From NCBI GenBank assembly GCA_013297825.1, contig JAAFIN010000011.1, positions 1 through 42,956 on the forward strand: 42,956 bases of DNA, given 5' to 3'. The notes below the pieces were generated by a model. The model saw only the letters and a program-made list of their open reading frames with translations, was not told the DNA's origin and searched no databases. Within the stretch, counting starts at the first letter, position 1. Each line of letters begins with the position of its first letter. Made by a program: the position numbers and the translations under genes. Source of the DNA: Cytophagales bacterium (GTDB lineage Bacteria; Bacteroidota; Bacteroidia; Cytophagales; Microscillaceae). Shown here piece after piece: positions 9,269 through 18,977 of the stretch.

Positions 9269-9356
9269 AATTTCTGTCAAATGCTTCTTTTATGGATTTT
9301 TCTAAATTATCGTCTTTTAGTTCGTATTTGTTAAATTGTGCAATATTGCTTTTTTT
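9267..9356 (-). other. Out-of-frame tail of the methyltransferase behind an A7 run
   Basis: From the seven A residues on the coding strand (plus-strand T7 at 9350-9356), the -1 frame continues for 27 codons. It begins SNIAQFNKYELKDD and ends SIKEAFDRN with a stop at 9267-9269. The composition is that of a normal protein tail, rich in K, E and D. The annotated frame ends instead in the weaker ILHNLTNTN. The coding strand reads TTA AAA AAA GCA, so A AAA AAA can act as a -1 slippery site. Confidence 0.6.
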
Positions 9357-11002
9357 AATGTGCTAAAAGTTCCATTTTGATTTTTTTTAATTTGTAGGTA
9401 GTTTAAATAATCAGTTTCTGAAAAATCTGAATAATGCAAAAAATAATCTGTATGAATAGGCAATAATTCCAAATCACTTCTCAAAACTTTGTGTGTTGCA
9501 AATAATTTTCTAAAAAGCCAATTAATAATTTCACTATTTAATAATGCAGTCAGTTGCTCATTTGTAATTCCAATATTCAAAGGAATAAGTAAATTAGCAC
9601 TATTCAAAATATATCGTTGTTGATTATCATAAAAAAAACACAAATCCGAAGAAATAAATTTATACATTAATTTTTCTTTTGCTTCATACATTTTTAAAGG
9701 TGCAATTTGTTGAAAATTTGAAAAATCATTTAATATAAAATTTGTTGCTTCTTTCAAACCTTTTTTTGTAATATCAGAACCTTTGTAAATTGGTATATAA
9801 TTTTCTTTTTTAATATTACTACAAAATTTTTCATTGTTTCCTGTTACAATACCCAAAGCCCATTTTGCTTTATCTTTCAAAGTAATATGTTTTGTGGTAT
9901 ATAATTTTTCAATTACTTGTGTTTCATTTTCATTTGTCCAAAAATTAAAAATTAGTTTTGGATTTTTTGTAAATGATGATAATTTTCTATCAAATTTTTT
10001 ATTTTCTGCAAAACATTCAATTATATCATCAGCATTTGCTTCTGTATTTTCAATAATAATTGCTTGTGCTTTTGTCAAAAGCCCTTTAAAAGCCTTGTCA
10101 TAATCTATAAAACGCAAGATTTTTTTTGCAATAATTTTTTTTCTAATATCTTCAAAAGTTGTAATATTAAAAAATGCTTCTTGCACCAAAAAACCTAAAA
10201 TACCATTTTTTTTGAGCAAAGTCAAACTCGCACCCATAAACAAAGCGGTAGTATCTAAACTATTACCACAACCAAAAAACGAAGAAATTTTTTCTTTTTC
10301 TTCTTTTTGAATTTTTTTGCCCCAAGGCGGATTTGTAAATATTAAATCAAAAAATGATTTTTCTTGATTTAATTCAAAAATTTTTTCTAAAAAATTACCA
10401 ACTTTTATATTGGGCGTTTCAAAACCAAATTCTTGCAATATGCGTTCTTTTGTGATAAAAACCGCATTTTCATCTACATCAAAACCATATACATTTTCAG
10501 GAGCAACACCTGATTTTATGGCTTCAATAATAAAATTCCCTGAACCACAACAAGGGTCTAAAAACTTAAAATCACTTTGAATTTTAATATTTTTAAACAT
10601 ATCTTTTACCACCCAAGAAGGCGTATAATAAATACCTTCTTTATTTCTGTGAGCATTTGATAAAGAATTTTCGTATTCAACACCAATATTCTCACCACTA
10701 AAATTTTTAATTAATGTATTAATTCCCCCTTTGAAGCCCCCCAAACCCCCAAAGGGGGAGTGAATGGTTAGGGGGCTTTCTTTTAATGACTTATTTGCTC
10801 TTGCATTTAATTTTTCTTTTCCAGCAATATTCAGCATAAAATTATCAAGAGATTCTTGTGTAATAATGCCTTTGCTTGACATTTCCAAATATCCAGTTTT
10901 TATCCAGTTACGAATAGTCGCAGTAGAAACATTAGCATTTTTTGATGCTTGTTCTATGGTAAAACCCTGCGTTTCTATTTCCCCAAATAAATTTGATTGC
11001 AT
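9317..11002 (-). CDS. N6-adenine DNA methyltransferase, frameshifted near its end
   Basis: The 561-residue product has an N-terminal helix-turn-helix of the MerR/excisionase type (FTIEQASKNANVSTATIRNWI). The class I methylase core follows, with SAM motif I DPCCGSGNF near residue 145 and catalytic motif IV NPPW near residue 225, which marks N6-adenine methylation. A TaqI-like target-recognition region occupies the C-terminal 200 residues. No nuclease domain or neighbouring restriction gene is seen, so it looks like an orphan methyltransferase. A 19-codon palindromic insert (SPLT...KGGI) lies at codons 76-94 between the HTH and the core. The frame ends at 9317, but reading back one base at an A7 run (9350-9356) gives 27 further residues (ending IKEAFDRN) up to a stop at 9267, just before a hairpin. 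This points to a frameshift, phase variation or slippage. Confidence 0.88.
   Translation of the reverse strand: MQSNLFGEIETQGFTIEQASKNANVSTATIRNWIKTGYLEMSSKGIITQESLDNFMLNIAGKEKLNARANKSLKESPLTIHSPFGGLGGFKGGINTLIKNFSGENIGVEYENSLSNAHRNKEGIYYTPSWVVKDMFKNIKIQSDFKFLDPCCGSGNFIIEAIKSGVAPENVYGFDVDENAVFITKERILQEFGFETPNIKVGNFLEKIFELNQEKSFFDLIFTNPPWGKKIQKEEKEKISSFFGCGNSLDTTALFMGASLTLLKKNGILGFLVQEAFFNITTFEDIRKKIIAKKILRFIDYDKAFKGLLTKAQAIIIENTEANADDIIECFAENKKFDRKLSSFTKNPKLIFNFWTNENETQVIEKLYTTKHITLKDKAKWALGIVTGNNEKFCSNIKKENYIPIYKGSDITKKGLKEATNFILNDFSNFQQIAPLKMYEAKEKLMYKFISSDLCFFYDNQQRYILNSANLLIPLNIGITNEQLTALLNSEIINWLFRKLFATHKVLRSDLELLPIHTDYFLHYSDFSETDYLNYLQIKKNQNGTFSTLKKAILHNLTNTN
10721..10777 (-). repeat. 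In-frame GC-rich palindromic element, 57 bp
   Basis: On the coding strand the element begins AGCCCCCTAACC and ends AAAGGGGGAATT, with an internal CCCCC-TTT-GGGGG palindrome. It is exactly 19 codons long, in phase, and encodes SPLT...FKGGI between the HTH and methylase core. The same ends in the same frame occur in the nuclease gene at 18259-18285. Confidence 0.85.
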
Positions 11003-12070: not shown

Positions 12071-12098
12071 GGTTTAAGGTTCAAGGTTTAAGGTTTAA
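12071..12098. repeat. Heptamer tandem repeat, GGTTTAA class
   Basis: Four exact-phase units (GGTTTAA, GGTTCAA, GGTTTAA, GGTTTAA) sit 6 bp upstream of the GTG start of the holin-like gene, in the gap to fur. Confidence 0.9.
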
Positions 12099-16898: not shown

Positions 16899-16985
16899 GT
16901 TAAAGTTTAAAGTTCAAAAAGTTCAAGGTTCAAAAGTTCAAGGTTCAAAGTTCAAGGTTCAAAGTTCAAGGTTCAAGGTTCAAAA
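16899..16985. repeat. Long heptamer tandem repeat, GTTCAAG class
   Basis: About twelve GTTCAAG/GTTCAAA/GTTTAAA units run from two bases upstream of the DUF445 start codon, with one or two phase slips. Alternation of AGTTCAA and GGTTCAA gives a secondary 14-bp period. Confidence 0.9.
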
Positions 16986-16993
16986 ACTCAATC

Positions 16994-18034: not shown

Positions 18035-18135
18035 GAAAAATAAAAATTCCTACATTTTTTGAAATCAAAAAAAATATTTTTTAGTTTTAAAAAAGTGGTA
18101 TATTGCATAAATTTTACACAAAAAATCAAAAAATT

Positions 18136-18939
18136 ATGATACTTGCAAGATTAGACAATGAAGTTTTTTTTAAAAAAGCATTCACAGATGTAATAGTTTT
18201 GAAGGCTTTTGTGAAAGATATTGTTGGAATTGATTTTGAACCAAATAAAATAGAAATAAGCCCCCTAACCCCCAAAGGGGGAATTTTAGCATTACAAAAA
18301 ATATTTGCAGAAACAGAAGATAAAACAAAACGCATTGAAATTCAAAAAGTAGAATATGACCATAATTTTGATAGATTTTTGCATTATCATCTGCAAGCAA
18401 TTACTGAACAACAAAGAAGTTCAGAAGATTATTCTGTTGAAAAAACGGTTTATACAATCGTTGTGATGACTGCACCTTATAAAATCAATTCAAAAACACA
18501 CGAACTTTACAAAGATGAGGTTTTAGTTTCAAACTTAAATCCAAAAAATTTAAAAGGAATTGAAAGAAAAATTTTTAATCACGAATTGATTTATTTGAAC
18601 CCAAATTACAAAGGAAAAGACACGCCTGATAATTACAGGGATTGGTTGGATTTGATTTATGAAAGCATACACAACCCAAAAAATCCACAAATAAACATCA
18701 ACAATGCAGGTATAAAACGCACTTCTGAGATTGTGGGTTATGAAAATATTAGCCCTGATGAATGGGAGCAGGCTAAAATTGAAGCCTCCAAAAGAAAAGT
18801 AATTAAACTTGAAAGGGAGGAAGAAAAAGAGGAAATTGCAAAAAAAGCAATTTTAAAAGGTTTGGACAATGATTTCATTGCTGAAATTACAGGATTGACC
18901 ATTGAACAAGTAGAAAAATTACGTAATGAAAAACCTTAA
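18136..18939 (+). CDS. PD-(D/E)XK nuclease family transposase (Rpn-like)
   Basis: The 267-residue product matches the Rpn/PDDEXK_2 family: an N-terminal ARLDNEVFFKKAF..., the nuclease core (RIEIQKVEYDHNFDRFLHYHLQAITEQ, where E-x-Q replaces the usual E-x-K), the YTIVVMTAPY strand, and the helical C-terminus ending in a small helix-turn-helix (KGLDNDFIAEITGLTIEQVEKLR). Family members are DNA endonucleases linked to recombination and often carried in many copies. The ATG at 18136 is chosen over a TTG at 18103. A nine-codon palindromic element (SPLTPKGGI, codons 42-50) is inserted in frame. The stop codon lies in a heptamer repeat. Confidence 0.88.
   Translation: MILARLDNEVFFKKAFTDVIVLKAFVKDIVGIDFEPNKIEISPLTPKGGILALQKIFAETEDKTKRIEIQKVEYDHNFDRFLHYHLQAITEQQRSSEDYSVEKTVYTIVVMTAPYKINSKTHELYKDEVLVSNLNPKNLKGIERKIFNHELIYLNPNYKGKDTPDNYRDWLDLIYESIHNPKNPQININNAGIKRTSEIVGYENISPDEWEQAKIEASKRKVIKLEREEEKEEIAKKAILKGLDNDFIAEITGLTIEQVEKLRNEKP
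18259..18285 (+). repeat. In-frame GC-rich palindromic element, 27 bp
   Basis: The element begins AGCCCCCTAACC and ends AAAGGGGGAATT, with only CCC between them, and encodes SPLTPKGGI in phase. It is the short form of the element at 10721-10777. Its GC content stands out against the A/T-rich gene around it. Confidence 0.85.
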
Positions 18940-18966
18940 ACCTTGAACTTTAAACCCTGAACTTTT
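18932..18966. repeat. Heptamer tandem repeat overlapping the nuclease stop
   Basis: Five in-phase units (AACCTTA, AACCTTG, AACTTTA, AACCCTG, AACTTTT) start inside the last codons of the nuclease gene and supply its stop (18937-18939). They end 12 bp before the next ATG. Confidence 0.9.
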
Positions 18967-18977
18967 TAAAAATTTTT

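Follow-up and report, generated by a model that had tools for sequence, protein, structure and literature searches.

The window analysed here is the whole 42,956-nt stretch (positions 1 to 42,956, forward strand) of contig JAAFIN010000011.1, assembly GCA_013297825.1, from a Cytophagales bacterium of the Microscillaceae. Two of its genes, encoding an adenine methyltransferase (MTase) and a nuclease, carry G/C-run repeats that are read in frame, and no further clusters of this kind are present elsewhere in the 43-kb window. The features are as follows.

9317–11002, minus strand: host gene 1, type II-like N6 adenine methyltransferase of 561 aa (Pfam and PADLOC)
10721–10777, minus strand: in-frame 57-nt insertion SPLTIHSPFGGLGGFKGGI, a composite of two repeat units, absent from six orthologues
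10721–10733, minus strand: 3' part of repeat A, CAAAGGGGGAATT on the coding strand
10734–10759, plus strand: core of repeat B, AAGCCCCCCAAACCCCCAAAGGGGGA, nested in A, antisense to the MTase gene and read SPFGGLGGF
10766–10779, minus strand: 5' part of repeat A, AAAGCCCCCTAACC on the coding strand
18103–18939, plus strand: host gene 2, Rpn-type PD-(D/E)XK nuclease family protein, probable ATG at 18133 (Pfam PDDEXK_2, 3.2e-07)
18257–18284, plus strand: repeat A together with the flanking A residues that are almost invariant in aligned copies

The MTase gene matches the Pfam families N6_Mtase (1e-16), Eco57I (7e-13) and TaqI_C (1e-21) as well as MTase_II of PADLOC (2.8e-171). On its coding strand, positions 10721–10777 read AGCCCCCTAACCATTCACTCCCCCTTTGGGGGTTTGGGGGGCTTCAAAGGGGGAATT, i.e. 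57 nt or 19 codons, with a GC content of 58% against 31% for the window; sequence and translation thus confirm the in-frame, GC-rich block of the preliminary description. Its placement between a helix-turn-helix and the methylase core is also borne out, the insert occupying aa 76–94 and the core starting at aa 107, with the preceding N-terminal helix-turn-helix-like region assigned by eye. The block had been regarded as one mobile insert; it is indeed derived from repeats, but it is not a single simple unit, since a type B repeat (AAGCCCCCCARCCCCCRAAGGGGGAGT, plus strand) is nested inside a type A repeat (AAGCCCCCTAACCCCCAAAGGGGGAA, minus strand). All six orthologues, sharing 61–77% identity, lack the insert and are typically 24 nt shorter at this place; the exact boundaries of the insertion are not derivable from the nearest relatives (~76% identity) because these differ in linker length.

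The nuclease gene contains a plain A unit, the exact 24-mer AGCCCCCTAACCCCCAAAGGGGGA at 18259–18282, which is read SPLTPKGG in the same frame, as had been claimed. As with the MTase orthologues, the peptide is missing from homologues of the Rpn nuclease with 73–78% identity, in agreement with the expected absence of the insert from relatives of both proteins. In the region 18257–18310 of the window nuclease the conserved Asp of [YL]DIFAE is gone, coinciding with the insert; it is retained in a 52% identical paralogue (L308). Owing to the loss of this residue the window nuclease is probably inactive despite its open reading frame, so that the supposed tolerance of the insert applies to the reading frame but probably not to nuclease activity. 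AT-rich direct repeats of ~7 nt (AAGGTTC, AAAGTTC, AAGGTTT) were also observed in the window at 16902–16990, 18931–18969 and 12071–12096; repeats of the AAGGTTC type make long inverted matches between intergenic sites, and such strings also flank many A copies elsewhere in the genome.

In the window's genome (5.06 Mb, 362 contigs) the exact 24-mer is present in 149 copies and a reversed-pattern control in none, which excludes chance. Copies aligned from the stretches around the repeats define type A as AA-GCCCCCTAACCCCC[AG]AAGGGGGA-A[TC] and type B as AA-GCCCCCCA[AG]CCCCC[AG]AAGGGGGA-GT. Both have a common anatomy of a C-run, a short linker and a hairpin with the C-run repeated in its 5' arm, the order within the unit being C-run, TAA or CAR, C-run, 3-nt loop and G-run; the A residues framing the unit are almost invariant, and conservation falls rapidly beyond it. 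Units no more than 200 bp apart form inverted pairs with their G ends facing each other (48 A/B and 15 A/A), six pairs being direct and none having the C ends facing, and the stretches of this genome contain no conserved spacer between paired units. Most copies are intergenic; those between tandem genes are sense in 31 cases and antisense in 39, without a clear orientation bias. A role in termination was considered and rejected, neither convergent gene ends nor the 3' ends of genes being clearly enriched in copies.

Outside the window's genome the exact 24-mer is sparse. Each of 14 genomes of the same family has 0–4 copies, and in a phylum sample of 395 genomes it was found in six only, with at most seven copies outside the window's genome, the count reaching 20 in selected other genomes. 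Identical 24-mers are nevertheless found in records of Flavobacteriaceae, Cytophagales, Prevotellaceae and others; the 24-mer is thus widespread and amplified in few lineages only. The 149 copies as compared with 0–4 in the same family point to recent multiplication in the window's genome.

The coding survey covered ~617 kb of stretches chosen around copies, in which 80% of the bases belong to called genes. Only 26 of the 167 A copies are situated within a gene at a depth of 25 codons or more, a strong depletion relative to the ~80% of coding DNA. Copies situated deep in an open reading frame, by a criterion of reading frames alone, are read in sense as SPLTPKGG in 25 of 29 cases in the window's genome; the remaining four fall into the two open antisense frames (three and one), and the second open sense frame, PPNPQRG, is avoided, with no copy. 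In other genomes SPLTPKGG accounts for 28 of 34 such copies and the other open frames for five, one and none. Relative to equal use of the four open frames, the bias has P values of ~7e-12 and ~4e-12, respectively; some proteins contain more than one copy, so that the events are fewer than the copies, but the bias goes far beyond that correction. With a slightly looser definition of the repeat the figure is 26 of 31, with one +2 case, and all 14 B copies inside open reading frames are antisense. The length test originally suggested, i.e. whether insertions are multiples of three, was replaced by this test of frame because every reading frame that stays open satisfies the former, which makes it uninformative by itself. 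The idea of a palindrome that spreads into genes and stays translatable is accordingly upheld by the extreme frame bias and has to be qualified by the depletion from coding DNA. Selection appears to keep almost only the copies read SPLTPKGG, since the other sense frames meet TAA or, in some genomes, a TGA within the spacer, or fail to persist for other reasons.

Further hosts in the window's genome are RecF, FtsK (with three copies in its linker), IcmF, a C-terminal extension of NuoI, a RecB/AddA-like helicase, a D-Ala-D-Ala ligase-type protein, an ArgD-like aminotransferase, DsbD and a CCP/MauG peroxidase; the insert-bearing RecF is the only RecF of this genome above the family cut-off. Besides the MTase and the Rpn nuclease, insert-free relatives were found for RecF, IcmF, the AddA-like helicase, the aminotransferase and the peroxidase. 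The surplus peptides in host enzymes comprise 8–25 residues, and the net change in length is ~+14 aa in RecF, +12 in the aminotransferase, +8 in the MTase, +3 in the peroxidase and −2 in the nuclease. Since this net change varies, integration as judged from the aligned proteins often replaces host residues rather than adding cleanly, and with a range from ~+14 to −2 aa the exact ends of the element and its target rules are not fixed. The copies in nuoI and dsbD have the common flank SPLTPKGGTNxQEEEK. The NuoI protein (gene at L163:2769–3809) is greatly prolonged at its C-terminus by duplicated, almost identical blocks, in each of which an A copy is combined with a B copy, either intact or degenerate. 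In IcmF of two relatives (L269 and L270) other repeat-like peptides, TPTLSKGEG and TPPSGVRGL, occupy the same linker, which suggests that one permissive site has been used repeatedly.

Units of comparable architecture are found in an independent lineage. In a Cytophagales MAG (G445) the unit is a pair of 73–75 nt with a conserved palindromic spacer, TGACGTAATAACGTCA, and TGACG...CGTCA stands between the arms; with DNA parameters the pair ...GGGGGAACTGACGTAATAACGTCAAAAACTCCCCC... is predicted to form an almost perfect hairpin of 73 nt (−34.8 kcal/mol). The sense frame SPLTPKGGTDVITSKTPPLGVGGL is open across the pairs, and in most units a TGA in the spacer interrupts the second sense frame. The pair occurs in ValS, LeuS, UvrA and a peptidase-ABC transporter and, as judged from sequence alone, in a Tex-like protein; a sortilin/BNR-like protein carries about six inserts. 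The conserved spacer of the genome G449 is a different one; spacers thus vary between genomes, and none of the TGACG...CGTCA type was present in 660 kb of the window's genome. A single open frame of G445 (L405:649–3999) comprises an RloB-like domain (aa 23–222) and ValS with at least two palindromic inserts, and could be a true fusion or merely the result of a missing stop between neighbours.

The same palindromes also bound in-frame DUF559 domains, inside MetH in Flavobacterium (two sites in L074, one each in L056 and L100) and in the genome G446 (L352), and inside ValS in a Prevotellaceae MAG (L050); these loci were found through a nearby 24-mer and are hence a biased sample of DUF559. The MetH sites can be compared in their empty and filled states: site 1 is empty in L100 (LLPFIEAAKQVGDKSGNGKILMATVKGD) and filled in L074, L056 and L352, and site 2 is empty in L056 (DDDDIELRDENGKVLEKFLTLRQQ) and filled in L074 and L100, with ~10–12 host residues replaced at the filled sites. 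On its right side the L100 insert is bounded by the exact 24-mer, read in antisense as VPPLGVRGL; the left palindrome of L050 is again the exact 24-mer, and peptides derived from the palindromes lie directly at the junctions of the DUF559 inserts. The domain matches the solved endonuclease-like protein 3hrl (2.8e-19). Pfam detected only DUF559 and host domains in L352, L050 and L457, with no indication of an intein or group I intron around DUF559; splicing seems unlikely, and the inserted peptide would stay in the protein.

A less biased set consisted of 19 DUF559 loci that a protein search returned from plasmid and phage records. In eight of them the gene is spanned by inverted repeats (arms ≥13 nt); for random positions within these loci the share is 2.2% (P 3e-9), in a comparison uncorrected for the higher frequency of hairpins in intergenic DNA and with several loci from some genera. 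The other 11 of these loci outside Bacteroidota have no inverted repeat of that length, and close relatives of the Bacteroidota DUF559 element were not found in the plasmid and phage records (all below 60% identity). Palindrome-flanked DUF559 genes are present in Cyanobacteria, Deinococcus and Alphaproteobacteria, and several of the flanking palindromes show the same two-armed C-run anatomy, e.g. GCCCCCTAAATCCCCCAATTCTGGGGGACTT of Pseudanabaena, which recurs at six places in the plasmid. In Pseudanabaena galeata, DUF559 interrupts, in frame, an adenine methylase of the Eco57I/MmeI type, broadly the class to which the MTase of the window belongs; in Sphingomonas and Deinococcus it is located between genes of suf, transhydrogenase and hpa clusters. 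Two Deinococcus species (L462 and L471) have a palindrome-flanked DUF559 gene in the same hpa cluster, at neighbouring positions. Since no DUF559 gene was detected in ~1.3 Mb, a quarter, of the window's genome, the enzyme of this genome may be encoded elsewhere, may have been lost or may be a different one.

It is highly probable that the repeat represents a mobile, frame-selected family of coding palindromes, its mobility being deduced from presence in the hosts and absence from their relatives. The short repeats would then most likely be non-autonomous relatives of the DUF559 element: DUF559 would cleave the DNA, and its repair would bring in a copy of the sequence between the palindromes at the expense of some host sequence, which would account for the replaced host residues. 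The genic copies survive almost only in one frame, as surplus peptides within enzymes. The whole explanation, i.e. mobile, frame-selected palindromes that are short relatives of a DUF559 element, is given a probability of about 0.7, with the chances of DUF559 itself being the mobiliser evenly balanced. In a broader and more tentative reading, which falls somewhat short of even odds, DUF559 endonucleases are the driving force behind a class of palindromic repeats that is widespread in bacteria; a nuclease gene between two-armed C-run hairpins would enter genes in frame and unspliced or slip between the genes of operons, and its nuclease-free ends would spread as short, peptide-adding repeats. 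DUF559 is described as an EDxHD homing endonuclease present in inteins in one report (PMC9403480), and another describes a DUF559 protein that causes the SOS response in Caulobacter (PMC12907096). The EDxHD/Vsr-like homing endonucleases of inteins and group I introns belong to the same nuclease family and likewise reside in frame within essential genes; in contrast, palindromes take the place of a splicing domain or ribozyme as boundaries of the in-frame DUF559 inserts described here, and no splicing element was found.

Alternatively, DUF559 might be a mere passenger that homes into palindromic insertions of other origin as safe in-frame sites. The direct repetition of palindromic peptides on either side of DUF559 in ValS of L050 and MetH of L352 is compatible with such secondary invasion, and most short copies have no DUF559 nearby; however, in several phyla DUF559 is bounded by different palindromes of the same anatomy, for which coevolving ends are the better explanation, and a passenger role is considered rather unlikely. 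Spread without any dedicated enzyme, by template switching or gene conversion between hairpins at replication, would agree with the replacement of host residues instead of clean insertion, with the common flanks of some coding copies (nuoI and dsbD) and with the lack of a link to RAYT genes. It explains neither the sharply bounded core at otherwise unrelated sites nor the repeated association with DUF559, and is accordingly judged less probable still.

Small hairpins, inverted pairs, high copy number and occasional in-frame insertion are also properties of REP, BIME and REPIN sequences, and in-frame REPs are known from some tnpA-REP genes of subclass 2.4 (PMC6006769). Repeats of the REP/REPIN type are moved in Proteobacteria as single strands by RAYT (TnpA-REP, a Y1 tyrosine transposase), and the same could be imagined here, since the inverted, hairpin-forming pairs (48 A/B, 15 A/A and the 73-nt hairpin of G445) look REPIN-like, four Y1_Tnp genes exist in the window's genome, and Bacteroidetes RAYTs of subclass 2.6 have been reported with flanking atypical hairpins lacking GTAG (PMC6006769). 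Searching with PF01797 in the window's genome and 13 further element-bearing genomes (flanks of 34 loci), however, revealed no A or B unit within ~1.4 kb of any examined Y1 gene and no RAYT gene flanked by the repeat as in a REPtron, although the same scan did find other palindromes beside IS200-type genes. Furthermore, one RAYT-like gene of the window's genome is truncated, and the conserved frame of the units, A-AGCCCCCTAACCCCCAAAGGGGGA-A, has no GTAG at the foot of the hairpin, so that RAYT-driven movement seems improbable. That SPLTPKGG is a conserved functional motif of its hosts, as its occurrence in many proteins might suggest, is practically inconceivable given the homologues without the peptide, the identical codons everywhere, the equally conserved intergenic DNA repeat and the removal of a conserved Asp from the window nuclease.

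A close parallel to the mobile palindromes proposed here is found in the palindromic elements of Rickettsia, hairpin repeats situated in frame in unrelated genes and kept translated, as stated for R. conorii (PMC3733652). The comparison drawn in the preliminary description holds by behaviour: the present repeats are palindromic, occur in many copies and in frame in unrelated genes, and are absent from homologues. The present family differs in its phylum, its 24-nt unit (~73–75 nt as a pair), its near-exclusive single sense frame and its link to DUF559. Intragenic GTAG and CGTC repeats are known from many bacteria, often in DNA-repair genes; the CGTC-tagged class, which includes dRS3 of Neisseria and RPE-4 and RPE-6 of R. 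conorii and is also found in Bacteroidetes, consists of short palindromes and dimers with intragenic copies, among others in DNA-repair genes, and has no known dedicated enzyme (PMC3733652). The CGTC in the G445 spacer is reminiscent of this class, whereas the sampled part of the window's genome lacks TGACG...CGTCA.

For the movement of in-frame palindromic repeats such as those of Rickettsia, the results offer a concrete candidate enzyme and a longer natural form of the element in which it is encoded; MetH supplies empty and filled sites for comparison, and in one lineage amplification is both recent and abundant. If the broader reading is true, DUF559 would be the missing mobiliser of palindromic repeats that have no RAYT, among them perhaps those of the CGTC type and the Rickettsia-like elements. 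The acceptance of surplus peptides in conserved proteins (RecF, UvrA, aminoacyl-tRNA synthetases) also bears on annotation and on the gain of loops. In a literature search that did not extend to subscription literature, no paper was found on the repeat or its peptide in such a context, and a link to palindromic repeats was not apparent from the titles and abstracts of papers naming DUF559. A third class of palindromes with the same two-armed anatomy, CCCCACCTAAATCCTCCCCAGAGGGGAGG, is dispersed in the window's genome, with sites at L162:1407–1504, L212:971–1070, L207:2396 and L238:80.
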